A model generated the notes under the pieces. It had not been told where the DNA came from and made no database searches. It saw only the letters and a program-made list of their open reading frames with translations. This document shows positions 2,712-19,663 of a stretch of DNA of 21,437 nucleotides, one piece after another. The stretch lies in the NCBI RefSeq assembly GCF_000272405.2, contig NZ_AJZM02000042.1, positions 1 to 21,437 on the forward strand. Reading direction: 5' to 3'. The position numbers were made by a program, and so were the translations under genes. Numbering within the stretch: position 1 is the stretch's first letter; each line of letters begins with the position of its first letter. This DNA comes from Vibrio tasmaniensis 1F-187 (lineage in GTDB: Bacteria; Pseudomonadota; Gammaproteobacteria; Enterobacterales; Vibrionaceae).

Positions 2712-2748
2712 TTCTCATATTGAGAAACCAACTTTCTCAATATGAGAT
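2712..2748. promoter_or_regulatory. Twin activator sites upstream of sypA (probable SypG enhancer)
   Basis: TTCTCATATTGAGAA (2712-2726) and TTCTCAATATGAGAT (2734-2748) are each near-palindromes and are reverse complements of one another. Together they form a perfect 15-bp inverted repeat (2713-2727 with 2733-2747) around the spacer CCAAC. Their centres are 22 bp apart, about two helical turns, and lie about 104 and 82 bp before the inferred sypA start. Related sites precede sypL, sypM and sypP. Known biology: V. fischeri SypG binds enhancers upstream of sigma-54 syp promoters. Assignment to SypG here is inference. Confidence 0.8.
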
Positions 2749-2795
2749 AGATATTAGCAGTCGATTTAAGTTGTTGAAAAATATAAATATAAAAG

Positions 2796-2814
2796 TTGGC
2801 ACATTCAGTGCAAT
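2796..2814 (+). promoter_or_regulatory. Sigma-54 promoter of sypABCD
   Basis: TTGGCACATTCAGTGCAAT matches the -24/-12 pattern TGGCAC-N5-TTGCA except for one T to G change. The conserved GG (2798-2799) and GC (2810-2811) have the required 12-bp offset. Transcription should start near 2823, giving a short leader of about 23 nt. Confidence 0.85.
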
Positions 2815-2845
2815 TGTCCATACATACTCAAAAGGAGATATCGCT

Positions 2846-3175
2846 ATGGAACTACGTAAGATTGATTTAAATACAACGACACTGACTCTTTCTATCTTCG
2901 GTGATTTAGATGCAGCAGGTAGCCGTGATGCTCAAACCGATATTGACGATGTAATCTCAAATGATGGCCACCCTGAAATCGAAGTTGATTTCAGCCAAGT
3001 TGAGTTTTTAGATTCATCTGGTGTTGGCGCAATTGTTTACATGTTCAAACGCCTAACTGAACGCGAACGCAACATGCGACTTGAAAATGTGACTGGTCAA
3101 CCTCTTGAAATTATGAACTTGTTACGTATTGGCCACGCTATCCCAGTAAATTCAAAAAATCCTACAAATTCATGA
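2846..3175 (+). CDS. sypA: SypA-like STAS domain regulator
   Basis: A 109-residue single-domain STAS protein of the anti-sigma-factor-antagonist type. In V. fischeri SypA promotes syp biofilm at a step after transcription and is switched off when SypE phosphorylates one serine (established for that species). The signature FLDSSGVGAIVYMFKRL is present; by analogy with SpoIIAA the first serine of DSS, here Ser57, is the phosphorylation site. The ATG at 2846 follows AGGAG (2833-2837) by 8 nt and lies about 23 nt after the inferred sigma-54 start, which excludes the longer frame from 2624. First gene of the sypABCD run, with 62 bp before sypB. The SypE kinase/phosphatase gene is not in this window, so the partner is unknown. 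Confidence 0.88.
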   Translation: MELRKIDLNTTTLTLSIFGDLDAAGSRDAQTDIDDVISNDGHPEIEVDFSQVEFLDSSGVGAIVYMFKRLTERERNMRLENVTGQPLEIMNLLRIGHAIPVNSKNPTNS

Positions 3176-3237
3176 AGATCCACTAAGCTAGAAGTAACAA
3201 AACATAATAATAAAAAGTAAAAACATAGGACGTTGGC

Positions 3238-4074
3238 ATGAAAATACTGAAAAGCTACATAGCCCTTTCTCTGTCTGCTTTAGTTCTAGGTGGCTGTACT
3301 AGCTACCCTGAACAAGGCACTGGCGGCTTGGCTGAAAGTTATGACTCTATTAATTACCAAAATTCCGACTTTTCTCCTGTCATGCCAGACGAGCCTCTTG
3401 GTCCTGAACACGGATTACGTTTTGATTGGCAACTGGCTAAATTACATCTTGATGCCTTGATTCAAGAAGGCGCCCGTTGGTGCTTCCCCGCTGCTGTTGT
3501 GCAAGCGATAGAGAAGCAAAATCGTATCGCTCGCGAACTACAAGGTGGCCTGCTTCTAGATGCGGCAAACGACCTAGTCATTCAAAGAAAACGTTTAAAC
3601 GAACTTGAAGTCCAACTGGACTATGTGACGTCACAAGCACGGTGTGAACCACCAAAAAATGAAAACCAATTTAGAATGCAATTGTCGGTTATCGAACAGT
3701 TGTACGACCTGCTTAATGTTGACAACCAATTCGCGGAAAACTCTACTGAAGTCAATCCCAAATACATGGGACGACTTGCCGAGGCAACGACGCTACTGAA
3801 AGAACATAAATCTCTAGACCTTGTTGTTACCGGCCATGCTGATGCCACGGGTACTGAAGAATATAACGATGACTTGGCACTTGGACGTGCTAAACAAGTC
3901 GAACGCTACCTAACGATTTTTGGCTTAGGTGTTCAGAGAATCAAAGCGGTATCTGTTGGTGAAACGGTTCCTCTTTTTGAAGGCGAATCAGACGGTACGC
4001 GTTTAACTAACCGCCGAGTGAGTATTGAAGTTATCTCCCCTAAAAATGCCGAGAAAATGGGAGGTGGATTATGA
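3238..4074 (+). CDS. sypB: SypB-like OmpA-family outer-membrane lipoprotein
   Basis: A 278-residue lipoprotein with a C-terminal OmpA-like peptidoglycan-binding domain, probably anchoring or organising the export machinery at the outer membrane. The lipobox VLGGC places the lipidated cysteine at residue 20, followed by Thr, so outer-membrane sorting is expected. Residues 60-140 are helical and charged, probably coiled coil. The OmpA domain spans about 165-267, with VVTGHADATGTEEYN, then NDDLALGRA, and NRR at 258-260 supplying the usual Asp/Arg contacts to peptidoglycan. AGGA (3227-3230) lies 7 nt before the ATG. The stop overlaps the sypC start (ATGA), implying coupled translation. The family call is firm; the Syp assignment rests on gene order. 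Confidence 0.88.
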   Translation: MKILKSYIALSLSALVLGGCTSYPEQGTGGLAESYDSINYQNSDFSPVMPDEPLGPEHGLRFDWQLAKLHLDALIQEGARWCFPAAVVQAIEKQNRIARELQGGLLLDAANDLVIQRKRLNELEVQLDYVTSQARCEPPKNENQFRMQLSVIEQLYDLLNVDNQFAENSTEVNPKYMGRLAEATTLLKEHKSLDLVVTGHADATGTEEYNDDLALGRAKQVERYLTIFGLGVQRIKAVSVGETVPLFEGESDGTRLTNRRVSIEVISPKNAEKMGGGL

Positions 4075-6170
4075 AATCATTGATCGCTTTTATCATCACC
4101 CTATCGTTAAGCTTTACGAGTGTCGTAAATGCTAACGAAGAGTTTTCAGACGCGGTTCAAGTCGGTGACCTTATCCAAGTTAACGTACCCGGTGAAAGTA
4201 CGTTGAACAAAGGGTTCCAAGTGGATAAACGTGGCCGCATTACCCTCCCTGAAGTGGGCGCCGTATTTGTTGCGGGTTATAACAGTGAACAACTTAACAA
4301 AGTCGTTTTAGAGTCACTGGCTACCGCTTATAAAGATCTTTCAAACGCTTCGGTATATGTAAAAGAGCAGCTAATTATCATCTACGTGCAAGGTTATGTA
4401 GAACAACCCGGTGAATACACACTGGCGTTAGGCTCAAGTATCCAAATGGCACTCTACGCAGCAGGTGGATTACGTCCCGGCGCACAACTGGACAAATTGA
4501 TACTTAAGCGAGGTGCGGACAAGAAAGAGTTTAACTACAAACGATTCCTTGATTCAGGTGATGAATCAACACTACCTACTCTGCAATCACTGGATTCATT
4601 ATTCGTTCCAGCTTCCCCATTAGTCGGTAACATCGAGCAAGAGTTTGACGCAGCAAAGCTCGCTAACTCAGGTGACAGTGCTGACTCTCGCAATTCGATT
4701 AAAGTGTTTGGTGAGGTTAACGCGCCGGGTTCGTTCACTTACAAAGAGAATACCGACCTTGTCGACGTATTAATGCGTTCAGGCGGGGTAACTCGCTATG
4801 CCAGTGTTGAACAAATCCGAGTAATTTCAAATAATACGCCTACGCTGTTCAACCTTAAGCGTTATTTGGATTCTGGTGACGAAAGCCTACTTCCAATCTT
4901 ACGCCCAGGTGCAACGATTTTTGTGCCGAAGCAAGAGGAAGAGATCAAATCCGGCGCAAACATGGTTTACGTTATGGGTGAAGTCGCTGCCCCTGGCGCT
5001 TTTGAAGGAAAGAGAGACGCGACCTTCATGGATATCCTTGCCAATGCTGGCGGCCCAACTCGATTTGCAGAGTCGCGTCAAATACGCGTAATCAAAGCGG
5101 ATGGTCGAGTACTTAAATTCGATTTAGCGGCTTACACTGAAGGCTTGCCTAACTCTAACCCACCGAATATTAAAGCCGGTGACGCGATCTTTGTTCCTGA
5201 GAAAACCGACATGAACGAGAAATCTTGGTTAAAGATTGCACCAGACAGAGCAGTTAACGTGATTGGTGAGGTGAATCGACCTGGTCGTATAGAATGGTCA
5301 GATGAAATGAACTTCATGGGATTATTGGCACACGTCGGCGGCCCCACGCTACGCGCTGACACATCGAAAATTGAAGTCGTGACGGGTAGAAAGTTGGTTG
5401 TGTTTAATCTTGATGATTTCATCAGAAATGGTGCGCCACGAGATCTGATGCCACAAATTCGTGCAGGCTCTATCGTCCGTGTCCACGACTTGCCACAAGA
5501 TCCGTCAGACAATAAATCTCAATGGGTACGTCAAAGCTCTGATGCTTCGATCTACATTTTTGGACAAGTGAATGCACCGGGTCGTTACCGCTTCACCAAA
5601 GACATGCACTTTCTTGACATTTTGTCTGCAGCTGACGGGCCTACTAAGGATGCCGATATACACAACGTGCGTGTGACTCACCGTGATAAAACCTACTCTA
5701 AAGTAAGCAAACTCAATTTATCGTTGTACTTCGAAACCGGTGACGAATCGTTACTGCCAAATGTAACCACAGGTGACACTATTTATATCCCAGAGAAAGG
5801 TAAAAACTGGTTAGATACACCGAAAGAAGAAACCGTTCGTGTACTTGGCGCGATTAACAACCCAGGACGTTATGTGTTCAACGACAACATGACCATTTTA
5901 GATATATTGGCAGAGGCGGCGGGCCCTACTGATAACGCTTACGTAGAGAAAATTACCATTGTGAATATGTCTTGTTGCCAAGGTCAAGCTCGTACCTTCG
6001 ACCTTGTTGAATTCAGCAAAACAGCCAACATTTATAACCTACCAGTACTGCGCGCTGGTGACACTATCTACATCCCAGATCGCCGAGAGAGCTTTATGGA
6101 AAAAGCTCGTGTAGGTCTAGAAGACATACTACGTCTAACAACAATGATCGTCTTAATAGGAGCTTTATAA
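4071..6170 (+). CDS. sypC: SypC-like polysaccharide export protein with six SLBB repeats
   Basis: Outer-membrane polysaccharide export protein of the Wza/OPX class. A signal peptide ends near VVNA (residue 21). The polysaccharide-export domain covers about 27-102 (VGDLIQVNV, RGRITLPEVG). Six SLBB-type repeats follow at about 103-181, 210-287, 298-378, 394-474, 493-576 and 587-671. Most have a G-x-V-x-x-P-G turn near the start, and all but the fourth end in a strand resembling TIFVP or TIYIP. At 699 residues it is nearly twice the roughly 380 of E. coli Wza, so the periplasmic stack should be longer. The last 25 residues, ending in TTMIVLIGAL, form a hydrophobic helix like the one that crosses the outer membrane in Wza. 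It overlaps sypB by 4 nt and has a strong GGGAGG-type ribosome site. Confidence 0.9.
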   Translation: MKSLIAFIITLSLSFTSVVNANEEFSDAVQVGDLIQVNVPGESTLNKGFQVDKRGRITLPEVGAVFVAGYNSEQLNKVVLESLATAYKDLSNASVYVKEQLIIIYVQGYVEQPGEYTLALGSSIQMALYAAGGLRPGAQLDKLILKRGADKKEFNYKRFLDSGDESTLPTLQSLDSLFVPASPLVGNIEQEFDAAKLANSGDSADSRNSIKVFGEVNAPGSFTYKENTDLVDVLMRSGGVTRYASVEQIRVISNNTPTLFNLKRYLDSGDESLLPILRPGATIFVPKQEEEIKSGANMVYVMGEVAAPGAFEGKRDATFMDILANAGGPTRFAESRQIRVIKADGRVLKFDLAAYTEGLPNSNPPNIKAGDAIFVPEKTDMNEKSWLKIAPDRAVNVIGEVNRPGRIEWSDEMNFMGLLAHVGGPTLRADTSKIEVVTGRKLVVFNLDDFIRNGAPRDLMPQIRAGSIVRVHDLPQDPSDNKSQWVRQSSDASIYIFGQVNAPGRYRFTKDMHFLDILSAADGPTKDADIHNVRVTHRDKTYSKVSKLNLSLYFETGDESLLPNVTTGDTIYIPEKGKNWLDTPKEETVRVLGAINNPGRYVFNDNMTILDILAEAAGPTDNAYVEKITIVNMSCCQGQARTFDLVEFSKTANIYNLPVLRAGDTIYIPDRRESFMEKARVGLEDILRLTTMIVLIGAL

Positions 6171-6859
6171 TGACTATTTCAGCAATCCAAGCAGAAGTAG
6201 AACAACTGTATCTAGCTTCTGAACTTAACGGACAGAAATCGATTTGCGTGACTGCCTGTCATTCAGGTGACGGGGTAACCTCTATTGCAACTGCATTAGC
6301 AGAACGTTTTCTCCTTGCTGGTCATTCTACGCTTTATGTTGACCTCAACTTATACAATCCTGCTTTTAAAGATTTGAACATGTTGGAAGACAATCAACAG
6401 GGACAGTTAATTGAACATGTCGAGTCTCATCGTACGTTTATCGGTGTCCCTGCTCCACAAATCGCATCAACGCAATTGGCTTATAAAGATCCGACTACAT
6501 TACAAAAAGTGGTGAACAAATGGTTAGAGAAATACGATCGAGTCATCATTGATACCTCACCGCTTCTCAATATTAACAAAGGGAATATCCCCGCACAGTC
6601 TGTTGCGAGTGCCTGTGACAGCACATTGATGGTTGTCGCCTATGGTGAAACGTCAACTCACCACCTAGAACAAGCGAAAAAGCTGCTTGATGCGCAGAGT
6701 ATCAATCTTATGGGTTGTGTGATGAACATGAAACAAACACCTAGCTTTGCACAAGAGTTGGTAAGACAAATCAATCGCATGAAATTCCTTCCAACTAAAC
6801 TTCGCGATAGCTTGGCCAATAAGCTTTACCAAAATGAGTTTTTAAACCTACCGATGTAA
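6170..6859 (+). CDS. sypD: SypD-like CpsD/Wzc-type ATPase with degenerate Walker A
   Basis: A 229-residue cytoplasmic protein of the bacterial tyrosine-kinase/ParA-like fold that normally partners a Wzz-type membrane protein (here SypO). The fold is recognisable, but key residues deviate. The P-loop reads HSGDGVTS (31-38), with Val36 where the family has Lys. Walker A' reads VDLNLYNP, with Asn60 in place of the second Asp and no Arg. Walker B, VIIDTSP with Asp128, is intact. The C-terminus has one tyrosine (LYQNEFLNLPM) and no tyrosine cluster. Real kinase activity is therefore doubtful; a structural or regulatory role is a fair alternative. It overlaps the sypC stop by 1 nt (TAATG), with AGGAG 7 nt upstream. 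Last gene of this transcript; a terminator follows at 6961. Confidence 0.82.
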   Translation: MTISAIQAEVEQLYLASELNGQKSICVTACHSGDGVTSIATALAERFLLAGHSTLYVDLNLYNPAFKDLNMLEDNQQGQLIEHVESHRTFIGVPAPQIASTQLAYKDPTTLQKVVNKWLEKYDRVIIDTSPLLNINKGNIPAQSVASACDSTLMVVAYGETSTHHLEQAKKLLDAQSINLMGCVMNMKQTPSFAQELVRQINRMKFLPTKLRDSLANKLYQNEFLNLPM

Positions 6860-6874
6860 CTTTTCTGCGCCACG

Positions 6875-6912
6875 ATAGCTTTTTTGTACAACTATAGCTT
6901 TCTTGTGCAACT
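6875..6912 (+). repeat. Tandem 19-bp direct repeat
   Basis: Two abutting copies of ATAGCTTTYTTGTRCAACT (6875-6893 and 6894-6912) agree at 17 of 19 positions. They lie just after the sypD stop. Function is unknown; this could be a slippage duplication or a protein site. Confidence 0.75.
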
Positions 6913-6960
6913 GTATGGCTATCAGTAAATCCTGACAGCCACCGTGCCTATTGGACTTTA

Positions 6961-6999
6961 CGCCCAAACACCCCAAAACCAAGTTGGGTGTTTTTGGCG
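6961..6999. terminator. Hairpin terminator after sypABCD
   Basis: CGCC-AAACACCC at the left arm pairs with GGGTGTTT-TTGGCG at the right arm, with one unpaired C on the left and a loop of about 12 nt. The core ACACCC/GGGTGT stem leads straight into TTTT (6991-6995), as in an intrinsic terminator, and the extended stem is nearly symmetric. It should separate sypD from the betaine operon. Confidence 0.7.
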
Positions 7000-7440: not shown

Positions 7441-8433
7441 ATGAAATACAAGTTAAGCTCCGTATTTTTGTTAGTAGCAGCAGCCAGCGGTAATGCTAAC
7501 GCTGGAGAATGTGGCAGCGTAACAATCGCAGATATGAACTGGAACTCTGCAACACTGATCGCCAATATCGACCAATTCATCCTAGAACATGGTTATGGGT
7601 GTGATGCCGAACTTATCCCTGGCGACACCATGCCAACAGGCACATCCATGATTGAAAAAGGCCAGCCTGATGTTGCACCTGAACTTTGGAGCAACAGCTT
7701 AAAAGACGCATTGGACAAGGGTGTCCAAGAAAAACGTCTTCGCTATGCAGGTAAAGCACTTGTGAATGGCGGTGAAGAAGGCTTTTGGGTTCCAGCTTAC
7801 TTAGTTAAACAATACCCAGAGATGGCAACCATCGAAGGTGTACGTAAAAACGCTAGCTTATTTAAGCACCCTGAAGACCCAGATACATCAGCATTTTACA
7901 GTTGCCCAGCAGGCTGGAACTGTCAGATCAGTGCCGGAAACTTGTTTAACGCTCTTGAGCTGGAAGACAGTGGTTTCACGATTGTTGATCCAGGCTCGAG
8001 TGCCGGCTTATCTGGCTCTATCGCAAAAGCTTATGAGCGCGAAGAAGCTTGGTTTGGTTACTACTGGGCACCAACCGCTGTTCTAGGAAAATACGACATG
8101 GTTAAAGTCGACTTTGGCAGCGGCGTTAATGAGGAAGAGTTCCTTAACTGTACCACCAAAGAAGACTGTGAATCGCCAAAAGCGACCATGTACCCGCCTT
8201 CACCCGTTCACACTATCACCACTGAGAGTTTTGCGTCACGTGCACCTGAAGCTTATGACTACTTCACTAAACGTGGTTTCACAAACGACAAAATGAACTC
8301 GCTGCTTGCTTGGATGGAAGACAACCAAGCCGATGGTGAAGAAGCAAGTCTGCATTTCTTGAGTGAATTCCCAGAAGTATGGCACCCATGGGTTTCTCAA
8401 GAAGTGGCTAAGAAAGTTGAAGCCGAACTGTAA
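7441..8433 (+). CDS. proX: Betaine/proline-betaine ABC transporter, periplasmic binding protein
   Basis: Periplasmic substrate-binding protein of the ProX/OpuAC family, delivering glycine betaine or a related compatible solute to ProW/ProV. The 330-residue precursor has a signal peptide ending NANA (cleavage after residue 21). Trp34, Trp83, Trp116 and Trp209 lie in conserved contexts (ADMNWNS, PELWSNS, GFWVPAY, GYYWAPT) of the sort that build the aromatic cage for a quaternary amine. Six cysteines are present: 24, 54, and the close pairs 155/161 and 238/243, suggesting periplasmic disulfides. AAGGA lies 8 nt before the ATG. First gene of proX-proW-proV, the reverse of the E. coli V-W-X order. 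The exact solute (betaine, choline, carnitine or another) cannot be read from sequence alone. Confidence 0.9.
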   Translation: MKYKLSSVFLLVAAASGNANAGECGSVTIADMNWNSATLIANIDQFILEHGYGCDAELIPGDTMPTGTSMIEKGQPDVAPELWSNSLKDALDKGVQEKRLRYAGKALVNGGEEGFWVPAYLVKQYPEMATIEGVRKNASLFKHPEDPDTSAFYSCPAGWNCQISAGNLFNALELEDSGFTIVDPGSSAGLSGSIAKAYEREEAWFGYYWAPTAVLGKYDMVKVDFGSGVNEEEFLNCTTKEDCESPKATMYPPSPVHTITTESFASRAPEAYDYFTKRGFTNDKMNSLLAWMEDNQADGEEASLHFLSEFPEVWHPWVSQEVAKKVEAEL

Positions 8434-8511
8434 AAGCTTGGTTTAACAACAAGTAATTACGCTTCAACAATAATACGGAAATAACGTCGCTATACTTGAT
8501 GTTATTCATGA

Positions 8512-8565
8512 TTCGGAGCCCTTTTCATAGGCGATTACCTCATCGTATGAACAAGTGGCTCCGAA
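8512..8565. repeat. Long interrupted hairpin between proX and proW
   Basis: TTCGGAGCC (8512-8520) pairs with GGCTCCGAA (8557-8565). Inside it CTT pairs with AAG, TTCATA (8524-8529) with TATGAA (8546-8551), and CGAT (8532-8535) with ATCG (8542-8545), around the loop TACCTC. That is 22 base pairs with only small bulges. It ends about 5 nt before the proW ribosome site. Likely an RNA structure that stabilises proX mRNA or damps proW expression; no T-run follows, so it is not a classical terminator. Confidence 0.8.
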
Positions 8566-8580
8566 CTATAAGGATATAAA

Positions 8581-9480
8581 ATGGCTGACACCAATTGGTT
8601 ATCAACCTTTCCAGAGATGGAACGCGCTGATTTACGAACCATAAAAAAGACGCTGGATGGCGCATACCGTGAATTCTCTCGTGAATACGGTGAAATGATT
8701 GAATCTCTATTTGACCCTCTTCTTTCATTCCTAGTTTGGTTTGAAAAACTTCTTATCTCAACCCCTTGGATTATAGTCCTCGCTGTTTGTACAAGCCTTG
8801 TCTACGCCGCGAGTCGTTCTTGGAAACTGGCTTTAGGTTGTGTCGTTTCCCTGCTCCTTATTGGTTACTTTGGTATGTGGGAAGACACCATGCGTACGCT
8901 CAGTATCATCACTGTGTGTACCTTGGTTTCGATATTCTTAGGCATTCCGATTGGCATTGCGATGGCTCGCTCGAATCGAGCGCAATCTATCGTTACGCCG
9001 ATGCTTGATATCATGCAAACCATGCCGGCATTCGTTTACTTGATCCCAGTAGTGATGCTACTCGGCATCGGTAAGATTCCAGGGCTAATCGCCGTGGTTA
9101 TCTACGCGATTCCACCTGTGATTCGTTTAACCAATCTAGGCATACGCTTAGTCGACAAAGAAGTATTGGAAGCGGCTACCGCTTTTGGTGCGAGCAAAAA
9201 GCAACGCTTATGGGGTGTTCAACTACCGTTAGCGATGCCAACGATCATGGCGGGTATCAACCAAACCATCATGATGGCACTGTCTATGGTTGTTATCGCA
9301 TCAATGATTGGTGTTAAAGGCCTAGGACAACCGGTTCTTAAATCTATTACCAACCAATACTTCACATTAGGCTTGATGAATGGTTTCGCCATTGTTGCCC
9401 TAGCAATCCTTTTTGACCGCGCTTCGCAGGCGTACGCAAGAAGAACCAATGCGCATTTAGGAGGACTCAAGCATGACTAA
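8581..9480 (+). CDS. proW: Betaine/proline-betaine ABC transporter, permease
   Basis: Inner-membrane permease subunit of the ProU/OpuA class, 299 residues. A charged N-terminal segment (about 1-45) precedes a run of hydrophobic helices beginning near 62. The cytoplasmic EAA loop that docks on the ATPase is clear: EAATAFGASKKQRLWGVQLP at 197-216, with the conserved Glu-Ala-Ala, Gly and Pro. Upstream residues 136-160 (MLDIMQTMPAFVYLIPVVML) match the betaine permease family. AGGA at 8571-8574 precedes the ATG. The gene lies 147 bp after proX across a strong hairpin and overlaps proV by 8 bp. Somewhat shorter than E. coli ProW (about 350), mainly because of a shorter N-terminal extension. Confidence 0.93.
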   Translation: MADTNWLSTFPEMERADLRTIKKTLDGAYREFSREYGEMIESLFDPLLSFLVWFEKLLISTPWIIVLAVCTSLVYAASRSWKLALGCVVSLLLIGYFGMWEDTMRTLSIITVCTLVSIFLGIPIGIAMARSNRAQSIVTPMLDIMQTMPAFVYLIPVVMLLGIGKIPGLIAVVIYAIPPVIRLTNLGIRLVDKEVLEAATAFGASKKQRLWGVQLPLAMPTIMAGINQTIMMALSMVVIASMIGVKGLGQPVLKSITNQYFTLGLMNGFAIVALAILFDRASQAYARRTNAHLGGLKHD

Positions 9481-10705
9481 ACCATTGATTGAGATTAGTG
9501 GCCTATACAAAGTGTTTGGACCGAAACCGATGTCTGTTATGAACCGAGTTCAGAACGGCGAACACAAAGACCAGATTCTTGCTGACACGGGTCATACCGT
9601 TGGTTTGAAAGAGATTAACCTTGAGATTAACCGTGGCGAAATCTTCGTTATCATGGGGCTTTCTGGCTCGGGTAAATCGACGCTGATTCGCCACTTCAAC
9701 CGTTTGATAGATCCGACTCAAGGTAAAATCATGGTTGAAGGCATCGATGTGATGAGCCTCAATACCAAGCAATTAGAAGAGTTCCGTCGTCATAAAATGT
9801 CGATGGTATTCCAACGCTTTGGCTTAATGCCTCATCGCACCGTGGTAGAAAACGTTGCGTACGGGTTGGAAGTACAAGGTATCAAAAAAGAAGACCGTTT
9901 AGCGAAAGCCAATGAGTGGTTAGAAACGGTGGGGTTGAAAGGTTACGGCAAGCAGTACCCTGCCCAGCTTTCTGGCGGTCAACAACAACGTGTTGGTCTT
10001 TCTCGAGCTCTGTGTACTAATGCTGAAATCTTATTAATGGATGAAGCGTTTTCAGCGCTCGATCCTTTGATTCGAAGTGAAATGCAAGATCAACTCATTG
10101 AACTGCAAGAGAAGCTTCATAAGACGATTGTTTTCATCACCCACGATTTGGATGAAGCACTTCGTCTCGGCGATCGAATCGCAATTTTGAAAGATGGCGA
10201 GTTGGTACAACAAGGTACGCCACATGAGATTCTGCTGAATCCAGCCGATGACTATGTAGAGGCATTCGTTAAAGACGTAAACCGTGCTCGTGCATTGACC
10301 GTTGAAACCGTTATGCAGCCCCCTCTCTATCGAATCACATCTGAAACGATTGAAGGTGCCTTGGCACAAATGAAGATGCTGAAAAATGACTACGCTTATC
10401 ACGTAACGGATGAAGGCTATCAAGGTCTAGTCACACAAGAGAGCCTACAGGATGCAGTTGAAGATTCATCGGTGCATGACTTCAGTGAAGAGATATACGA
10501 AGAAGTTCCAGCCATTTTGCCTGATGCGGTGATTGAAGAAGTGCTACCAGACACAATGTCTTGTGACTATTCTCTTCCGGTTGTTGATGAGGACGGTAAC
10601 CTAAAAGGTGAACTAGAGAGAAGCGCTGTTGCTGATATCTTCTCCGAAAGTAGCGAGGAAGAAGTAGAAGCCGACCCAAAGCCAAAGATTGATAAAGCTT
10701 CGTAG
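9473..10705 (+). CDS. proV: Betaine/proline-betaine ABC transporter, ATPase
   Basis: Cytoplasmic ATPase that powers solute uptake through ProW. All ABC motifs are intact: Walker A GLSGSGKST (62-70), Q-loop Gln114 in MVFQRFGLMP, signature LSGGQQQR (166-173), Walker B ILLMDEA (186-192), and switch His224 in FITHDLDEAL. A regulatory extension follows from about 275 to the end, in the position of the tandem CBS domains that sense ionic strength or nucleotides in OpuA/ProV. It resembles CBS sequence only weakly, and the last 60 residues are very acidic. 410 residues, close to E. coli ProV (about 400). AGGAGG (9459-9464) lies 8 nt before the ATG, inside proW. Strong terminator at 10815-10851. Confidence 0.94.
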   Translation: MTKPLIEISGLYKVFGPKPMSVMNRVQNGEHKDQILADTGHTVGLKEINLEINRGEIFVIMGLSGSGKSTLIRHFNRLIDPTQGKIMVEGIDVMSLNTKQLEEFRRHKMSMVFQRFGLMPHRTVVENVAYGLEVQGIKKEDRLAKANEWLETVGLKGYGKQYPAQLSGGQQQRVGLSRALCTNAEILLMDEAFSALDPLIRSEMQDQLIELQEKLHKTIVFITHDLDEALRLGDRIAILKDGELVQQGTPHEILLNPADDYVEAFVKDVNRARALTVETVMQPPLYRITSETIEGALAQMKMLKNDYAYHVTDEGYQGLVTQESLQDAVEDSSVHDFSEEIYEEVPAILPDAVIEEVLPDTMSCDYSLPVVDEDGNLKGELERSAVADIFSESSEEEVEADPKPKIDKAS

Positions 10706-10791: not shown

Positions 10792-10814
10792 GCCTAAACG
10801 ACTTAACCTGCTCT

Positions 10815-11516: not shown

Positions 11517-11737
11517 CTTTGGATGTTCATATAGCATCAGATAAAAACTCAACATAGTCGTTATTAATATAGTCCCCATAAAGATGCGAACTAGTATGAG
11601 TAGCAATGCGGGAAATTCTACACACCGCGCCTTAAAAGATTGCATGCGGTAGATAACAAATACACAAGACTCGTATTGATGGTTTTATATCACTATGTTA
11701 TTGATTGGTTAGGATAAAGTTTCAAAAGGAATACACA

Positions 11738-13249
11738 ATGCGCCCTAAGGTATTGTTAGTTGAAGACTCCACCTCACTCGCCGTACTCTACAAGCAGTAC
11801 GTAAAGGACGAGCCCTACGATATCTTCCACGTCGAAACCGGCGCGGAAGCTAAGACCTTCATTGAAAGGCACTCTCCACAGCTTGTTATTCTTGACCTTA
11901 AGTTGCCCGACATGCCAGGGGAAGAAGTCTTAGATTGGATTAGTACGAACGAAATACCAACCGCCGTCATTATCGCGACGGCACATGGCTCAGTAAACAT
12001 TGCTGTTGACCTTATCCAGCGCGGTGCGGAAGACTTCTTAGAGAAACCCATTCAAGCCGATCGACTCAAGACTTCTGTTCGCTTACATCTAAAAAGAGCG
12101 AAACTCGAAAACCTTGTCGATAACATGCAAAGCAAGTTCGATCGTGACCGCTTTCATAATTTCATCGGCTCTTGCCTTCCCATGCAAGCGGTTTACAAGA
12201 TTATCGATTCGGTAGCACCAACCACCGCCAGCGTGTTTATTAACGGTGAAAGTGGTACGGGTAAAGAAGTGTGTGCTGAAGCGATCCACCAAGAGAGCCA
12301 GCGTAACGGTAAGCCCTTCGTGGCTATTAACTGTGGTGCTATCCCTCGAGACCTAATGGAAAGTGAAATCTTCGGTCACGTTAAAGGGGCATTTACCGGT
12401 GCGACAACCGACCGTAAAGGTGCCGCAATGCAAGCGCATGGTGGCACCCTATTTCTCGATGAGCTTTGTGAAATGGAACTGGAGATGCAGAAGAAGCTCC
12501 TACGATTTTTGCAAACTGGTACGTTTACCCCACTCGGTGGCAACCGCGAGATTAAAGTGGATGTCAGAATTATCTGTGCGACCAACCGCGATCCACTGGT
12601 TGAGGTAGAAGAAGGACGCTTTAGAGAAGACCTTTACTATCGTGTTCACGTTGTGCCTATCGAGATGCCACCGCTTCGTGAACGAGGAAGTGACATTGTC
12701 ACCCTGTCTAATCACTTCTTGAAGCTGTACGCGAAGCAAGACAAGAAGAAGTTCAAATCAATAGACAAAGAAACGCAGAATCTACTTAAACGTTATGCGT
12801 GGCCAGGCAACGTACGTCAGTTGCAAAACATCATCCGTAACATCGTGGTGTTGAACAATGAAACGAGCGTGACTAAAGACATGTTACCGCCTCCGATTAA
12901 TAAAGTAGACGTAGCTACAGCCACGAAATCAGTGACACCTATTCGAGTAGCTGCGCCCCAAGCTGCTGTTGTGGAAGCACCAGAAACTAAGTTGCCACCT
13001 ATTACACCGGAAGAGTTGGAGCAATCCTCAGTTGTCCCCGCTAACAACGATCCGATGACGCCCGCATTTACAACAAGCGAAGGTGCTATTCGTCCAATGT
13101 GGCAAATAGAGCGCGAAGCTATTCAACATGCCATCAATCATTGCGATGGGAATGTGTTAAACGCTGCCGTGCTGTTAGAACTTAGCCCTTCTACTGTTTA
13201 TCGTAAGAAACAGGCTTGGGAATCGGAAGATGAGTACAATCAAGCCTAG
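11738..13249 (+). CDS. sypG: SypG-like sigma-54-dependent response regulator
   Basis: NtrC-class activator, 503 residues. The receiver domain (1-115) has the acidic pair at 9-10, phosphoacceptor Asp53 (VILDLKLPD), Thr81 and Lys103. The AAA+ domain (about 140-370) has Walker A GESGTGKE (170-177), an intact sigma-54 contact loop GAFTGA (217-222) and Walker B GTLFLDE (236-242). A long Pro/Ala/Val-rich linker (about 384-450) leads to a Fis-type helix-turn-helix (about 459-491, ending LSPSTVYRKKQ). The ATG at 11738 is 7 nt after AAGGA and gives the standard receiver start MRPKVLLVED; the frame open from 11705 is not used. It probably receives phosphate from the adjacent Hpt protein and activates the four -24/-12 promoters found here. 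LuxO-like regulators share this architecture, but the context makes SypG the better call. Confidence 0.9.
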   Translation: MRPKVLLVEDSTSLAVLYKQYVKDEPYDIFHVETGAEAKTFIERHSPQLVILDLKLPDMPGEEVLDWISTNEIPTAVIIATAHGSVNIAVDLIQRGAEDFLEKPIQADRLKTSVRLHLKRAKLENLVDNMQSKFDRDRFHNFIGSCLPMQAVYKIIDSVAPTTASVFINGESGTGKEVCAEAIHQESQRNGKPFVAINCGAIPRDLMESEIFGHVKGAFTGATTDRKGAAMQAHGGTLFLDELCEMELEMQKKLLRFLQTGTFTPLGGNREIKVDVRIICATNRDPLVEVEEGRFREDLYYRVHVVPIEMPPLRERGSDIVTLSNHFLKLYAKQDKKKFKSIDKETQNLLKRYAWPGNVRQLQNIIRNIVVLNNETSVTKDMLPPPINKVDVATATKSVTPIRVAAPQAAVVEAPETKLPPITPEELEQSSVVPANNDPMTPAFTTSEGAIRPMWQIEREAIQHAINHCDGNVLNAAVLLELSPSTVYRKKQAWESEDEYNQA

Positions 13250-14336: not shown

Positions 14337-14405
14337 TCCTAGCCTTAGTAGATAACTGGTTATTTTAGCTTGATAATTTAGCCGTTCTAGTCAGTTTTAT
14401 ACTGA

Positions 14406-14420
14406 TTCTCAAAATGACAA
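14406..14420. promoter_or_regulatory. Probable SypG site upstream of sypL
   Basis: TTCTCAAAATGACAA matches the sypA site TTCTCAATATGAGAA at 13 of 15 positions. Its centre is about 105 bp before the inferred start, the same as the distal sypA site. A weaker half-palindrome, ATCTCAACTTAAGAT, abuts it at 14421-14435. Binding is inferred. Confidence 0.68.
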
Positions 14421-14490
14421 ATCTCAACTTAAGATTATAGTATTACTCAATAATCCATCATTAAATCAGTTAGTTAACTGAGATGCATAA

Positions 14491-14508
14491 CTGGCACTCG
14501 CTTTGCAA
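14491..14508 (+). promoter_or_regulatory. Sigma-54 promoter of sypLMNO
   Basis: CTGGCACTCGCTTTGCAA is a full match to TGGCAC-N5-TTGCA, with GG at 14493-14494 and GC at 14505-14506. Start expected near 14518, giving a leader of about 78 nt. The best -24/-12 element in the window. Confidence 0.9.
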
Positions 14509-14564
14509 CCTTTAACATCACGCATTAGATACGACTTTCAAATGTATAACGATAGAGAGCTGCC

Positions 14565-14609
14565 ATGAATAGTTTACTCAGCAATAGAGATTACAATGCT
14601 CACCCCTGA
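14565..14609 (+). CDS. Possible 14-codon leader peptide overlapping sypL
   Basis: ATG at 14565 opens a frame encoding MNSLLSNRDYNAHP and stops at TGA 14607-14609, overlapping the first 14 nt of sypL in another frame. An AGAGAG stretch (about 14553-14558) could serve as its ribosome site. It lies wholly on the inferred sigma-54 transcript, while sypL itself has only a weak ribosome site, so translational coupling is conceivable. So short a frame could be chance. Confidence 0.3.
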   Translation: MNSLLSNRDYNAHP

Positions 14610-15972
14610 AGCCAATAGATTGCCAGTCATCATCACTATCAGCACCTTGTGTGTTGGGCTTGGTATTGTTTGGTACTTTGTGCCTCACCCTGCTGTTATT
14701 GTAGCGCTCGCTCTTGTGCCATTAGCTGGGTTATTCGTGTTAAACAAGACATTCTGGCTAGTTCTACTGTTCGTTGTCTTTTCATTTTTCCGAATTCACG
14801 AAGCCATACCTCAACTCTATTCGTTAAAAATACCGCTGATGCTTTCATTAGGTGCCCTGTCAGCTTTACTCTGGCATGCACTAATCAGTAAAGAGCTAAA
14901 AATCTTCTGGCACCCTTGTTTAAATTGGCTCGCCATATTTTGGGTATTGGTTTTCATTGGTATTATCTTCGCGTCTAACAGGCCCATAGCATTTGCAGAA
15001 TTCAAAGGTGTTTATTGGAAAATAATCGTCATGACGCTGGCGATTACTTGGTTAGTAAACACCACGGAAAATCTTGCAAAAACCGCGATGACGATTATCT
15101 ACGCAGGCGCTTTAGTCAGTTTTATTGCCGTGTACAACTCAGTAAATGGTATTGGGCTTGTCGAGGGCTCACGCGTGACTATTGGCCGCGATTTTGGCTC
15201 TATGTTAGGTGACCCGAACGACCTAGCACTGGTACTGATGTTCCCACTCGCCTTTACAATAAGCCAAGCCACCACGACTGGCATCTCACGATCCAAGCGT
15301 TTAATCAGTGCCTTAGTTTGTCTGTTACTGCTTGCCGCCATTATTGCCACTCAAAGCCGTGGCGGATTACTGGGTTGTATTGCGGTGATTGGTATTTTTG
15401 CGTGGAAGCTAGTGCGCTCTAAAGTCCTCTTAATCTCCGTAGGAACTGTCGCGGCCGTCGTGCTCTACTTGGTTGCTGGGATCTCAGACAGGTCTTCTGG
15501 TGGTGCAGCTGAACAAGGCATCGATGAATCTGCAATGGGGCGAATCTATGCTTGGGAAGCGGCAGTAAAAATGGCAGTTGAGAACCCACTGACCGGCGTA
15601 GGGTTGAACAACTTCTTCTCGAACTACTTCTTTTATAGTTCGCACTGGGACGGACTGAATCACGCCGTTCACAGTACCTGGTTTGGTGTGTTAGCAGAAA
15701 CAGGCTTTATTGGTCTGATCATTTTTGTCTGCCTTATCGTTTCTTTGATCAAAACCTCCCGATCCACACTCACCAGATTAAAAAACTCAACCACAGAAAT
15801 CGCACCTGAACTAAATGCGGTCGCGTATGCGATCTATGCAGGCCTGATTGGAACAATCGTGTCGGGTACATTTTTGACTCAAGGCTTCAACTGGCCGATT
15901 TATATCCTCGCAGCGCTCACAGTTTGCGTCTCTAACGTATCTCAAACTGCCTGTCAAAATGAGAAAACCTAA
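14596..15972 (+). CDS. sypL: SypL-like O-antigen ligase/polymerase family membrane protein
   Basis: Multi-spanning inner-membrane protein of the Wzy/WaaL family (Wzy_C domain), 458 residues. Hydrophobic segments run from about residue 8 to the C-terminus with one larger periplasmic loop. Diagnostic features are DPNDLALVLMFPLAF, the TQSRGGLLG segment, and in the loop MGRIYAWEAAVKMAVENPLTGVGLNNF followed by HAVHSTWFGVLAETGFIGL, the Arg and His positions typical of this family. It either polymerises repeat units (Wzy role) or ligates chains; with no other Wzy candidate in view, polymerase is my preferred inference. The start at 14596 has only a weak AGAG site and overlaps a tiny upstream frame. 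The 3' end contains the probable enhancer of sypM. Confidence 0.86.
   Translation: MLTPEANRLPVIITISTLCVGLGIVWYFVPHPAVIVALALVPLAGLFVLNKTFWLVLLFVVFSFFRIHEAIPQLYSLKIPLMLSLGALSALLWHALISKELKIFWHPCLNWLAIFWVLVFIGIIFASNRPIAFAEFKGVYWKIIVMTLAITWLVNTTENLAKTAMTIIYAGALVSFIAVYNSVNGIGLVEGSRVTIGRDFGSMLGDPNDLALVLMFPLAFTISQATTTGISRSKRLISALVCLLLLAAIIATQSRGGLLGCIAVIGIFAWKLVRSKVLLISVGTVAAVVLYLVAGISDRSSGGAAEQGIDESAMGRIYAWEAAVKMAVENPLTGVGLNNFFSNYFFYSSHWDGLNHAVHSTWFGVLAETGFIGLIIFVCLIVSLIKTSRSTLTRLKNSTTEIAPELNAVAYAIYAGLIGTIVSGTFLTQGFNWPIYILAALTVCVSNVSQTACQNEKT
15951..15965. promoter_or_regulatory. Probable SypG site inside the 3' end of sypL
   Basis: CTGTCAAAATGAGAA matches TTCTCAATATGAGAA at 12 of 15 positions, with the right half-site perfect. 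Its centre is about 82 bp before the inferred sypM start, the same distance as the proximal sypA site. It also encodes part of the SypL tail (QNEK), so the bases are under two constraints. Confidence 0.6.
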
Positions 15973-16012
15973 AACCCACACTTTAACCCATTGAAAACAT
16001 TATATTTATTAA

Positions 16013-16030
16013 ATGGCACAGTATATGAAA
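16013..16030 (+). promoter_or_regulatory. Sigma-54 promoter of sypM, weak -12 element
   Basis: The -24 element TGGCAC (16014-16019) is perfect. The -12 element reads ATGA, where TTGC is expected; the G (16027) is in place, but the following C is replaced by A. Start expected near 16040, leader about 25 nt. V. fischeri also has a sigma-54 promoter at sypM (established knowledge), which supports the call. Confidence 0.6.
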
Positions 16031-16064
16031 GTACTTCTATATAACAAGATAGAGGAGTTTCATT

Positions 16065-16850
16065 ATGACGTCAGTATCTATACATCAATTCAAACATTGG
16101 CTTAAGTTTCATCCTAATTCTCGAATTAGAAATGTGTTTTTCATTTTGAAAGACATCAGAAGCGCAGAGCTACCTACCCCTCAAATACTTAATCGTTGCC
16201 TCTATCAAGCGCACAAGCTAGTGGTGAATTTGGTTTCTGGCTTGACGAGATTCTTCTACTGGACACCGGCTTTCAAAGGTCGTGTGGCTCAATGTGGCAA
16301 GCGCCTGTATTTGTATGGTGGTCTGCCTTTCGTCAGCGGTCCGGTACAAATTACGATTGGCGACAACTGCCGTATCTCTGGCCACACGACATTCTCTGGT
16401 TGTACTCAGCCACTTGAAGGCTTGGAACACCCACTATTGTCGATTGGCAACAACGTCGACATCGGTTGGCAGTCGACTATCGCTGTTGGCGGTAAAGTGG
16501 TTATCTCTGACAACGTACGAATCGCTGGCGGCGCGTTTCTATTTGGATACTCTGGTCACCCGCTAGATGCAAAACGTCGAGCGCAAGGTGAAGGTGATGA
16601 CCCTCAGCAAATCGGCGACATCATTCTTGAACCCGATGTTTGGCTAGGCACGAATGTGACGGTTAAAGGCGGCGTAACTATCGGCGAAGGTGCCGTTATA
16701 GCCGCAGGCAGCGTAGTAACAAAGAATATCCCGGCCTTCGCAATCGCAGGTGGTAACCCAGCTCGAGTAGTCGGACAGATTAAATCCGTTGAAGTGACTG
16801 AATCCGATGTATTCGATTCATTAGAGACTCATGGAGGTGACCATGCGTGA
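16065..16850 (+). CDS. sypM: SypM-like hexapeptide-repeat acyltransferase
   Basis: A 261-residue acyltransferase with a left-handed beta-helix, probably O-acetylating a sugar of the repeat unit with acetyl-CoA. After a helical N-terminal region (1-70), hexapeptide repeats run from about 90 to 235 ([67 protein letters not shown]). The loop [12 protein letters not shown] carries His165, the likely catalytic base by analogy with galactoside and maltose acetyltransferases. The ending [11 protein letters not shown] is typical of the family. AGGAG (16053-16057) lies 7 nt before the ATG. It overlaps sypN by 8 bp. Acetyl transfer is inferred; another acyl group is possible. Confidence 0.87.
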
Positions 16851-17961
16851 TTTAATCGTATTTGGTGAAGACTTTGGCGGCCTACCGTCATCAACTCAAC
16901 ATTTAGTGCGTCACCTTGCTAAGCAACACAAAGTCTTATGGGTCAACTCTATTGGCCTAAGACAACCGAAGCTGTCCGCTAAAGATGCCACCCGAGCGTT
17001 CAACAAATTGTTTGGCAAAACCAAAGCCGTTACTCAAAACATGCTCGACTCTGAGGGAAACGACAACATTACTATCGTTAACTTAAAGACAATCCCTGCG
17101 CCTGCTTCTCAATTTTGTAGAAAGTTGGCTCAGCAAATGATGTTGCATCAACTAAAACCAATGATTGCAGAGCTTAATCTTAACACGCCTATCCTATGGA
17201 CTTCTCTTCCGACCGCTGTTGATTTGTGCGGACACTTAGGCGAGTCAGCGGTTGTTTATTACTGTGGGGACGACTTTAGTGCACTTGCGGGCGTAGACCA
17301 CAAGACAGTCGCAAAGCATGAATTAGAACTCATTGAAAAATCAGATTTGATCTTCGCTGCTAGTGAAAAATTGATAGACAAATTCCCTAGCAAGAAAGCT
17401 CAGCTCTTACCACATGGTGTCGATGTCGGGCTATTTTCTACACCCGCACCAAGAGCAAAAGATTTACCAAGCAACCACCGCCCTATTGCTGGTTTTTATG
17501 GCAGCCTTTCTAAGTGGCTTGATTATGAAATGATTGATCATGTTGCGAATGCGATGCCGGAATGGGATTTTGTTTTCATTGGTCCAAACGAGCTTGATAC
17601 GCTCATGCTGCCTAAGTTGAGTAACGTACATTACCTTGGCCCTCGTCCACACAACACGCTACCAAGTTATTCTCAACACTGGGATGTTAGCTTGTTGCCG
17701 TTTGTTGATAACGAGCAGATCCGAGCGTGTAGCCCACTCAAACTAATGGAATACCTTGCGGCTGGCACACCAATTATCACAACACCGTTCCCTGCTTTGG
17801 TTCCATATCAAGAGCACGTAACCACGGTTGGCAGCGCGAACCAAATGATTTGGGCGCTTGATCATGCACGCCAGCTAAGCAACTCACCTATCTCTGTCGT
17901 CGAACAAGAGAGCTGGCAGAACCGTGGTAACTTCGTACATTGGATGTTGGAGCTATTATGA
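16843..17961 (+). CDS. sypN: SypN-like glycosyltransferase, GT-B fold
   Basis: A 372-residue glycosyltransferase of the GT1/GT4 superfamily, presumed to build the exopolysaccharide repeat unit in the cytoplasm. N-terminal landmark: [20 protein letters not shown] (8-27). C-terminal nucleotide-sugar domain: [10 protein letters not shown] (189-198), [15 protein letters not shown], and [18 protein letters not shown] near 295-312. The last replaces the classical E-G-x-P-x-x-x-x-E motif, as in the glycosyl_trans_1_4 branch. I place the start at ATG 16843, because GGAGGTGA (16833-16840) directly precedes it and the earlier ATG at 16831 would overlap that ribosome site. It overlaps both neighbours (sypM by 8 bp, sypO by 4 bp), so the genes are translationally coupled. 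Sugar specificity is unknown. Confidence 0.84.
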
Positions 17962-19382
17962 ATAATCTTAAGTTGCGCTTACTAGTCATCCTAAATGCGA
18001 TGTGGCGCCAACGCTACGTTATCGTTCTGCCAATGCTTATTTTGCCATTTGTAGGCTTTGGTGTGAGTAAGTTGGCTCCAACTAAATATGACGCGCATAC
18101 CAGTATGTTGATTCAAGAAACGGCCAAGATGAATCCATTCTTGGAAGACATCGCCGTTTCTACCATGCTAAAAGATCGACTTAACGCATTGAGAACATTG
18201 CTTCACAGTCGACATGTTCTTTACTCTGTAGCGGAAGAGCTTGAACTGACCACACCAAATATGTCTGAAATTGAGAAACAAGAAATTATCACTGATCTGT
18301 CTCAGCGTTTATCAGTGACACAGCTTGGAAAAGATTTTCTTAAAATTAGTTTAACGTCGAACACTCCAAATGGAATGGAACAAACGCTTCGAGCGGTGAG
18401 TGAACATTTTATTGAACAGCTGCTCGCGCCGGAACGTTCGTCAATTGAGGACTCAAGTAATTTTTTGAAAATCCATATAGACAAACGTAGTGCGGAACTT
18501 GAAGAGGCAGAAGAAGCGCTAGCCGCATACATGAACGAAAACGTCCAATCGACGCCAGAAGTGCAAAGCCAAAGCTTGAATCGCTTAGCGTCACTCAAAC
18601 AAACACTGGCGGAAAAAGAGGCGGAATTATCGGGTGTTGAAAAAAGTTTAGGGTCAATCGACCAACAACTTTCTAAAACAAATCCCGTGATAGGTCGAAT
18701 CGAAGACCAGATCATCGACATTCGCAGTGAGCTGACTCTGCTGCAAGCCAAATACACAAATAAACACAGTGCCGTACAAGCTAAAGTCCGTGAATTAGAC
18801 AGGCTTGAAAATGAGCGAAAAAGTTTGCTCGAGGTAACCCAGCCAACGATGAACAGCGACCAGCTTTGGGACATCGCAAGTAGCACGACACTAAACAAGC
18901 TTTCTGATACCCAACCTCTTCTGGTCACTCAATTACACAGCCTACAACTGGTTCGTGCTCGCTTTGAGTCTTTAACTGAAGAGACCAAAAGCCTTCGTAC
19001 TATGATTTTCGAATTAGAACACAAGGCGAATAACTTCGGTGAAAATGCCAAAGAGATGTACCGCCTTAAACGTCAAGTTGAAATCAAGCGTCAACTATAT
19101 GATGAACTGACAGAGCGTTATGAAATGGCTCAGCTAACGGGTTCGCTTGGTGTATTCGAGCAAAACAAACGTGTGAAGATTATCGATTTGCCTTTCACGC
19201 CTAGCATGAAATCTAACATGCCGACTTTTATCTTTATTCTGGCTGGATTTGTTGCGGGCATCGGATTGGGCATTGGTCTGGCGGTATTGTTCGAGCTGTT
19301 TGACTCTTCAATCAAACGTAAAGACGAAATCGAAGAGATCTTAGGTGTCCCTGTGATAACGGTGATACCTAAAATGGGCTAG
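17958..19382 (+). CDS. sypO: SypO-like chain-length determinant (Wzz/PCP family)
   Basis: A 474-residue polysaccharide co-polymerase that sets chain length and links polymerase to export. An N-terminal cytoplasmic tail and first membrane segment (about 20-38, YVIVLPMLILPFVGFGV) lead to a large periplasmic domain with long coiled coils (about 160-240 and 335-395). The second membrane segment (about 421-445) precedes a short cytoplasmic tail ending VPVITVIPKMG. There is no fused kinase domain, so this is the Wzz half of a split Wzc, with SypD the probable other half. The periplasmic part is much longer than in classical Wzz and resembles EpsF/XrtA-associated proteins. The ATG at 17958 overlaps the sypN stop (ATGA), with GGAG 5 nt upstream; the TTG at 17940 is rejected. 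A terminator follows. Confidence 0.88.
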   Translation: MNNLKLRLLVILNAMWRQRYVIVLPMLILPFVGFGVSKLAPTKYDAHTSMLIQETAKMNPFLEDIAVSTMLKDRLNALRTLLHSRHVLYSVAEELELTTPNMSEIEKQEIITDLSQRLSVTQLGKDFLKISLTSNTPNGMEQTLRAVSEHFIEQLLAPERSSIEDSSNFLKIHIDKRSAELEEAEEALAAYMNENVQSTPEVQSQSLNRLASLKQTLAEKEAELSGVEKSLGSIDQQLSKTNPVIGRIEDQIIDIRSELTLLQAKYTNKHSAVQAKVRELDRLENERKSLLEVTQPTMNSDQLWDIASSTTLNKLSDTQPLLVTQLHSLQLVRARFESLTEETKSLRTMIFELEHKANNFGENAKEMYRLKRQVEIKRQLYDELTERYEMAQLTGSLGVFEQNKRVKIIDLPFTPSMKSNMPTFIFILAGFVAGIGLGIGLAVLFELFDSSIKRKDEIEEILGVPVITVIPKMG

Positions 19383-19459
19383 TCAGCCTCAAAGGTATTT
19401 TAAACTTGCTAGCCTCGTAGCTTCTTAGCTTCTTCTTGTCTTTTTTGCTTCCTAGCACT

Positions 19460-19490
19460 AAACGCCAACATTCGCTTGGCGTTTTGTTTG
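19460..19490 (+). terminator. Rho-independent terminator of sypLMNO
   Basis: AAACGCCAA (19460-19468) pairs with TTGGCGTTT (19476-19484) around a 7-nt loop and is followed by a T-rich tail. It separates sypO from the sypP transcript. Confidence 0.88.
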
Positions 19491-19573
19491 TCTGAAGACC
19501 CAAGTTCTAACGCCGCTTGAGGTTTCCCCGAGCCCTATTATTCAAACTGCCAATCAATCGTATTTTGTTTTGA

Positions 19574-19588
19574 TTCCCATTTTGAGAA
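19574..19588. promoter_or_regulatory. Probable SypG site upstream of sypP
   Basis: TTCCCATTTTGAGAA matches TTCTCATATTGAGAA (distal sypA site) at 13 of 15 positions. Its centre is about 92 bp before the inferred sypP start, one helical turn further than the proximal sypA and sypM sites. Confidence 0.65.
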
Positions 19589-19645
19589 ACGAAAACCGCC
19601 CTCGAACCATTCGCTATAAGCCACTGAAATGTAAAAACTATTTAA

Positions 19646-19663
19646 TTGGCACAACTCCTGCAA
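19646..19663 (+). promoter_or_regulatory. Sigma-54 promoter of sypPQ
   Basis: TTGGCACAACTCCTGCAA matches TGGCAC-N5-TTGCA except for C at the first T of the -12 element. GG (19648-19649) and GC (19660-19661) are correctly spaced. Start expected near 19673, leader about 81 nt. Confidence 0.85.

Follow-up and report, generated by a model that had tools for sequence, protein, structure and literature searches.

The syp exopolysaccharide locus of Vibrio tasmaniensis 1F-187 raises the question of what fixes the position of an upstream activator site relative to its σ54 promoter. The DNA analyzed here, referred to as the window, is a whole stretch of 21,437 nucleotides (positions 1 to 21,437 of contig NZ_AJZM02000042.1, assembly GCF_000272405.2) and was recognized as a syp-type locus using Pfam. 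σ54 promoters precede sypA, sypL, sypM, and sypP, and a near-palindromic 15-mer, the putative site of the activator SypG, is found upstream of each. Judged from their sequence, these promoters appear to be a newly recognized and well-supported case of a σ54 enhancer that is assisted by integration host factor (IHF) and held in helical register; the kind of enhancer is itself known.

Each of the four promoters is probably an IHF-assisted enhancer module. SypG would bind the palindrome, and its phosphorylated form would assemble an AAA+ ring and open the RNA polymerase held at -24/-12. IHF would occupy a fixed slot in the intervening DNA and, by folding it, bring the enhancer back to the polymerase. 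In so short a loop, the enhancer would have to lie on one face of the helix: displacement by whole turns, each about 11 bp in the cell, would be allowed, and displacement by half turns would not. The sites, the promoters, the register that holds in over 100 loci, the constant IHF-like slots, and the joint distribution of site and element at the sypI or sypL promoter (sypI/L) were read from the DNA itself; from these we infer which proteins bind, that the DNA is bent and looped, and that a half-turn displacement would cost activity.

The 15-mer TTCTCANNNTGAGAA was searched on both strands of the window with up to three mismatches allowed. Ten matches were obtained, against a mean of 0.76 and a maximum of 4 in 100 shuffles, which rules out a chance origin of the sites. 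Five sites and four promoters are present where an initial annotation of this DNA had placed them, and its distances were reproduced when recomputed from the site center to the -12 base (Table 1). The σ54 pattern alone, at up to two mismatches, is not significant in the window (18 matches vs 12.8 expected), and the notable feature is the pairing of σ54 elements with sites. The C at -12 that the annotation had used as its anchor holds for sypA, sypL, and sypP, which conform to the σ54 consensus (GG at -25/-24, GC at -13/-12, and their spacing), but not for sypM, which conforms only in part, with GA at -13/-12. The phase concentration (R) of the five window sites is 0.86 at 10.5 bp (simulated p 0.014) and 0.94 at 11.04 bp (p 0.003); with one site per promoter, the simulated p values are 0.05 and 0.016, respectively. 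The window alone is weak evidence of phasing, suggestive and not decisive, and the relatives decide.

SypG is encoded inside this locus, with an Hpt-domain open reading frame (ORF) on one side and sypH on the other. In V. fischeri, SypG sites and σ54 promoters are found at four syp operons (Ray et al. 2013, quoted in PMC10162802 and PMC10804989), and SypG is proposed as the binder by analogy with that species. The two loci share the four operons, the σ54 promoters, the SypG sites, and the motif TTCTCANNNTGMDWN, which in a comparison by eye fits two of the five window sites completely and three with one mismatch; they differ in that the window is without sypI–K and has its second promoter before sypL. 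An activator such as LuxO acting at the sites instead is very improbable. Among NCBIfam models, LuxO is the best match to the window protein, and SypG and LuxO sites overlap at V. fischeri qrr1 (PMC10162802). The score of 600.5 bits, however, is under the cut-off of 800 for that model, the gene is located in the syp locus, and in V. fischeri the promoters of sypA and sypP require SypG and are not switched on by LuxO (PMC10162802).

Table 1. Positions of the sites, promoters, IHF-like elements, and genes (forward-strand numbering of the window unless a locus is given; distances relative to the -12 base)
Feature	Position	Strand	Remarks
SypG-type site, sypA distal	2712..2726	+	TTCTCATATTGAGAA; center 2719, -104
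SypG-type site, sypA proximal	2734..2748	+	center 2741, -82; 22 bp from distal site
IHF-like element, sypA	2767..2779	-	TAAGTTGTTGAAA (+ strand reading); -56 to -44, 1 mismatch
σ54 -24/-12 promoter, sypA	2797..2812	+	TGGCACATTCAGTGCA
SypG-type site, sypL	14406..14420	+	center 14413, -105
IHF-like element, sypL	14464..14476	+	AATCAGTTAGTTA; -54 to -42, no mismatch to WATCARNNNNTTR
σ54 promoter, sypL	14492..14507	+	TGGCACTCGCTTTGCA; no mismatch
SypG-type site, sypM	15951..15965	-	center 15958, -82; within 3' end of sypL ORF
IHF-like element, sypM	15984..15996	-	TAACCCATTGAAA (+ strand reading); -56 to -44, 1 mismatch
σ54 promoter, sypM	16014..16029	+	TGGCACAGTATATGAA; A replaces -12 C
SypG-type site, sypP	19574..19588	+	center 19581, -92
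IHF-like element, sypP	19617..19629	-	TAAGCCACTGAAA (+ strand reading); -56 to -44, 1 mismatch
σ54 promoter, sypP	19647..19662	+	TGGCACAACTCCTGCA
sypA, STAS-domain protein	2846..3175	+	Pfam
sypB, OmpA-type	downstream of sypA		Pfam
sypC, export protein	after sypB		Pfam
sypD, short	after sypC		Pfam
Betaine-type ABC transporter, three genes	7441-10705		between sypD and Hpt ORF; Pfam
Hpt-domain ORF, 135 amino acids	11109-11516		Pfam
sypG, putative site binder	11705..13249	+	Response_reg, Sigma54_activat, HTH_8 (Fis-type helix-turn-helix); Pfam
sypH	after sypG		Pfam
sypL, polymerase-like	14596-15972		Pfam
sypM, sypN, sypO, sypP	after sypL		Pfam
LruC-domain protein gene	L245:7424-9559	-	promoter ~9600-9680; window genome, contig C87

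Helical register of the enhancer sites

A scan for SypG relatives provided 80 loci, of which the 56 whose record titles place them in Vibrionaceae formed the discovery set and the 24 from outside this family were left out. The held-out set was drawn from 203 genomes in which SypA was matched; 100 loci were fetched, and removal of 28 duplicates left 72. Together with the window, the total is 129 syp loci. All were processed with one script and fixed thresholds for σ54 elements and for sites with up to three mismatches to TTCTCANNNTGAGAA. A promoter was entered when a site of at most two mismatches lay 45–170 bp upstream, and loci without a recognizable site are uncounted; six of 359 entries matched no particular syp promoter and were set aside, which leaves 353 promoters. 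Near-perfect sites, with zero or one mismatch, number 296 (129 + 167), or 295 when one unassigned site is left out.

Among the 129 near-perfect sites of the window and the discovery loci, R is 0.82 at 10.5 bp, and the period that fits best is 10.92 bp. For the 167 near-perfect sites of the held-out loci, an R of 0.84 is obtained at a best period of 11.12 bp, and the phase is unchanged. Conservation of phase in related syp loci, the outcome by which the annotation had proposed to be judged, was found in the discovery set and then in the held-out loci, for which the prediction and the thresholds had been fixed beforehand. In the pooled set, 287 of the 295 sites (116 of the 129 loci) lie no more than a quarter turn from one register, and 267 lie within 2 bp. 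The register positions are -70.8, -81.9, -92.9, -104.0, -115.0, and onward; the register extends from about -71 to -116 across four different promoters, and the distance class of the distal sypA site of the window (-104) is frequent among the relatives. The fitted period is 11.04 bp, with a bootstrap interval (10.92–11.28) that excludes 10.5. This value agrees with the 10.95–11.60 bp per turn fitted to Lac loops in vivo (PMC1762422) and with the value of about 11 in PMC8501960.

The unusual -12 base of sypM is conserved in the same set. C is found in none of the 77 sypM promoters (A 56, T 20, G 1) and in 270 of the 276 promoters of the other three types (sypA, sypI/L, and sypP). This departure from the consensus perhaps affects promoter strength or leakiness.

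Two controls were applied. Sites with three mismatches, used as a noise control, retain some phase (R 0.37 in the discovery set at 10.5 bp and 0.47 in the held-out set at 10.9 bp), perhaps because some of them are real weak sites. Permuted half-sites (59 permutations) gave at most 6 sites, with a median of 0, against 295, a comparison that is unfair since the promoters had been preselected for having a site.

Many of the loci are close relatives, and the phasing might be an accident of shared ancestry. SypC identity was used for thinning, and 6 of the 129 loci are without a usable SypC. When the loci were thinned to 30, 12, 6, or 3 SypC clusters, 77, 43, 30, and 21 entries remained, and the best R was 0.77, 0.76, 0.74, and 0.82, respectively; the ends of this range are clusters at 85% (77 entries) and 70% (21 entries). 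On a FastTree phylogeny of SypC from 123 loci, the minimum number of changes in distance class is 13 for sypA, 15 for sypI/L, 9 for sypM, and 4 for sypP, for a total of at least 41. Independent pairs were defined as tree paths that share no branch. Among 128 such pairs, 83 are unchanged, as common descent would have it, and 45 are shifted. The shifts comprise 22 of 1–3 bp, none of 4–7, 12 of 8–14, none of 15–18, 9 of 19–25, and 2 of 44–45. Shared ancestry alone is largely contradicted by the persistence of the register in the thinned sets and at four different promoters and by these independent shifts, and its probability is next to negligible.

All 12 shifts of 8–14 bp come from sypI/L, sypM, and sypP, and none from sypA, where the larger shifts reflect in part which of two sites scores best. 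In these pairs, a given promoter shifts its enhancer in whole turns and avoids half turns. Contacts between SypG molecules on neighboring sites might set the register in place of the promoter; whole-turn steps would then arise when either member of a tandem pair spaced by two turns is lost. At sypA, a pair of sites with a spacing of 22 bp is indeed found in the window and in many relatives, and a spacing of about 21 bp occurs at some sypI promoters with two sites. The promoters with mostly single sites (sypM, sypP, and most sypI/L) nevertheless show one-turn steps relative to the promoter, at -82, -93, and -104, and it is from these that every independent shift of 8–14 bp was obtained. An origin in SypG–SypG contacts is quite improbable. 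The register in the relatives and the absence of half-turn shifts bear out the description of the activator position as fixed by rotation and free in distance; a fixed rotational position, with distance free in whole turns, is strongly supported.

A comparable arrangement is known for the paralogous activator LuxO, where the loop lengths of 61 Vibrio qrr enhancers cluster in steps of about 11 bp (PMC4740811). Clustering at whole turns and avoidance of half turns, the mark of the LuxO/qrr-type register, were likewise found for the syp sites. In the LuxO sites sampled here, most centers fall at -93 to -97 and at -105 to -108, whereas the syp register spans four promoters.

The element between enhancer and promoter

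The initial annotation had favored a geometry without IHF-dependent looping, and this part of it is not upheld. Matches to the IHF consensus WATCARNNNNTTR were accepted at up to one mismatch. Such an element is present between enhancer and promoter at all four promoters of the window. In the wider set, 88/109, 78/115, 63/77, and 39/48 loops have a match, against 25, 26, 16, and 11 in dinucleotide shuffles. The elements occupy constant slots, in reverse orientation at -56 to -44 in sypA, sypM, and sypP, and in forward orientation at -54 to -42 or -43 to -31 in sypI/L. An element is in slot at 254 of the 353 promoters (sypA 84/110, sypI/L 73/117, sypM 60/77, and sypP 37/49); the mean in-slot counts for base-shuffled loops are 6.9, 6.6, 5.3, and 3.1, respectively. 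As the default reading, the absence of IHF-type bending is rejected, given the consensus matches at constant slots, far above the shuffles. Phasing by itself would be no argument against IHF.

When the outer end of the WATCAR half is used as the reference point, which is an analyst's choice and not a modeled bend center, the elements fall at two centers, near -44 and -55, one turn apart. At sypI/L, the proximal site falls in the -82 class at none of the 55 promoters with the element in the far slot and at 9 of the 18 with it in the near slot. The joint distribution of enhancer and element at sypI/L is suggestive only, as it comprises about three lineages by eye.

LuxO-type loops were compared in 32 loci, of which 29 have a LuxO–σ54 pair; one of these (L221, a sypA promoter) was removed to give 28 putative qrr loops. 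The first LuxO pattern matched 3 of 150 genomes and a looser one 42 of 61. An element in slot was detected in 4 of the 28 LuxO-type loops, compared with the 254 of 353 syp promoters, and most LuxO-type loops have none. Two enhancer classes, with and without IHF, have been described (PMC4740811), and the syp and LuxO-type loops fit these two. In IHF-dependent σ54 promoters such as the NifA-driven nif operons and E. coli glnHp2 (PMC4740811), the order is also activator site, IHF site, and -24/-12, with a bend between activator and polymerase. The syp promoters differ from these in having an activator that is a LuxO/SypG-type response regulator, and an IHF site that is predicted from sequence. 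An IHF site has been predicted before in the V. fischeri syp locus (PMC4573307, citing Hussa work), for the same locus and the same protein. That prediction is of a single site with no position in the passage, whereas the slots here are common to four promoters and to most of the 353.

The window genome was searched for the reverse slot combined with a σ54 element. Six places were found, against one for the backwards pattern used as a control: the sypA, sypM, and sypP promoters and three others. One of these (L251) is the pspA promoter beside pspF (PspF and PspA by NCBIfam), with the reverse IHF-like slot at -56. The pspA promoter of E. coli uses IHF. The other two places, which also have the reverse slot at -56 and a σ54 element, are L250, in the vicinity of genes whose products have GDPD and phosphonate-binding domains, and L252, near the gene for a 4Fe-4S protein.

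A promoter outside the locus and the weighing of the proposed module

Sites with at most one mismatch occur at 36 places in the window genome, vs 24 for the backwards pattern; 4 of the 36 are in the window, and there is little excess elsewhere. Three of the 32 other sites lie 45–250 bp upstream of a σ54-like element at a lenient threshold. The best of these (L184) is a perfect site at -91 of TGGCACGTAACTTGTA and precedes the gene for a 711-amino-acid protein with LruC (DUF4842), GEVED, and DUF6923 domains. With the site at -91, an IHF-like element at -43, and a σ54 promoter, this gene is likely a SypG target outside syp, as predicted from its upstream sequence. The LruC-domain protein is probably secreted and is a candidate matrix protein. 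A literature search for bmpA or bmpC with SypG found no papers. The two weaker candidates have one-mismatch sites, at -93 of TGGTTCGTATCTTGCT, a poor σ54-like element (L195, contig C139), and at -94 or -119 of another poor element (L205, contig C254).

A homologue of the LruC protein is present in 69 of the 118 genomes searched. Thirty homologue loci were fetched, and 27 have a site–promoter pair, five of them only by way of a two-mismatch site; no pair was found in L270, L274, and L282. Of the 22 sites with no more than one mismatch at these promoters, 21 are in register. Of the 27 promoters, 24 carry the IHF-like element in the near slot; it is forward in 21 and reverse in 4, L280 having both orientations. 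The -12 C is missing from 25 of 27 (T 13, A 12). An alignment of six LruC promoters, including L257, has a constant site and a constant IHF–promoter block, and the A-rich spacer between them varies in length.

The element could also be a feature other than an IHF site, such as a stretch of intrinsic curvature, a binding site for another protein, or some general upstream feature, with rigid phased action by SypG alone and no bending protein. The LuxO sites, phased with an IHF-like element in only 4 of 28 loops, are in keeping with this, as are the enhancer class without IHF sites (PMC4740811) and the A+T content of the loops (71–75%). On the other side, all four promoter types share a specific 13-bp consensus at a single recurring position, far above shuffles, and in the LruC promoters the center of the element is unchanged when its orientation flips. 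In the A+T profile of the loops, there is only a broad peak at about 12–13 and none at 10.5 bp. Action by SypG without a bending protein is unlikely.

Several observations weigh against an IHF-assisted module in register. Eight of the 295 syp sites are off register. Four, at the promoter after sypH in Photobacterium-type loci (L038 at -110, L040 at -100, L173 at -101, and L174 at -100), are 3–5 bp off with a near-perfect site and possibly have a different loop geometry; the remaining sites are L141, L158, and L162 (after sypH, -90) and L151 (sypM, -96). The LruC site of L257, at -108, is also off register. At 99 of the 353 promoters there is no in-slot element at up to one mismatch. The slots were defined after the positions had been seen, and the closest approach to an independent check comes from the LruC promoters. 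A more stringent IHF matrix matched 78/353 loops vs 27/353 upstream and 18/351 downstream windows, losing most elements, and it separates sypM poorly (22/77 vs 15 and 12). The register of LuxO sites is similar although IHF-like elements are few there, and hence phasing as such does not require IHF.

The IHF-assisted module may be taken one step further. SypG enhancer, IHF bend, and promoter could form a rigid module of three parts, which evolve only by steps equal to the helical turn in the cell (about 11.0 bp, not 10.5), with the element keeping its bend center when its orientation flips and with enhancer and bend sliding together at sypI/sypL. This extension is tentative, at slightly under an even chance. 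If it is true, genome comparison reads out loop geometry and the DNA helical repeat in living cells.

Attempts to purify SypG have reportedly failed (PMC10162802), and the module provides a precise, testable geometry for an activator that resists purification. From the rule it can be predicted which spacer changes preserve syp expression, and hence biofilm formation, and which abolish it. The search pattern (in-register site, IHF slot, and -24/-12) already indicates a likely regulon member outside syp, and a second activator with a phylogenetically controlled test is added to the published LuxO/qrr observation. In the passages of PMC10162802 and PMC10804989 that quote Ray et al. 2013, neither the helical register nor the IHF slot of the V. 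fischeri syp locus is mentioned. The cross-species register of SypG sites, the constant IHF-like slot, and the LruC promoter are likewise unmentioned in the literature searched, the scope of which excludes subscription papers.

Gene content of the window

Gene letters were assigned by the V. fischeri order (PMC5801674). No ORFs for sypI, sypJ, or sypK are found between sypH and sypL in the ORF list of the window, and the second promoter sits before sypL for this reason. Because the sypP promoter begins at 19647, the start codon of sypP should lie downstream of the listed TTG at 19646. No matches were obtained when the window was scanned with Rfam at gathering scores or when the DNA ligase-like ORF was analyzed with PADLOC. 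The position expected for SypF, a hybrid sensor kinase, is occupied only by the Hpt-domain ORF; a truncated F is also present in V. diabolicus (PMC5801674).

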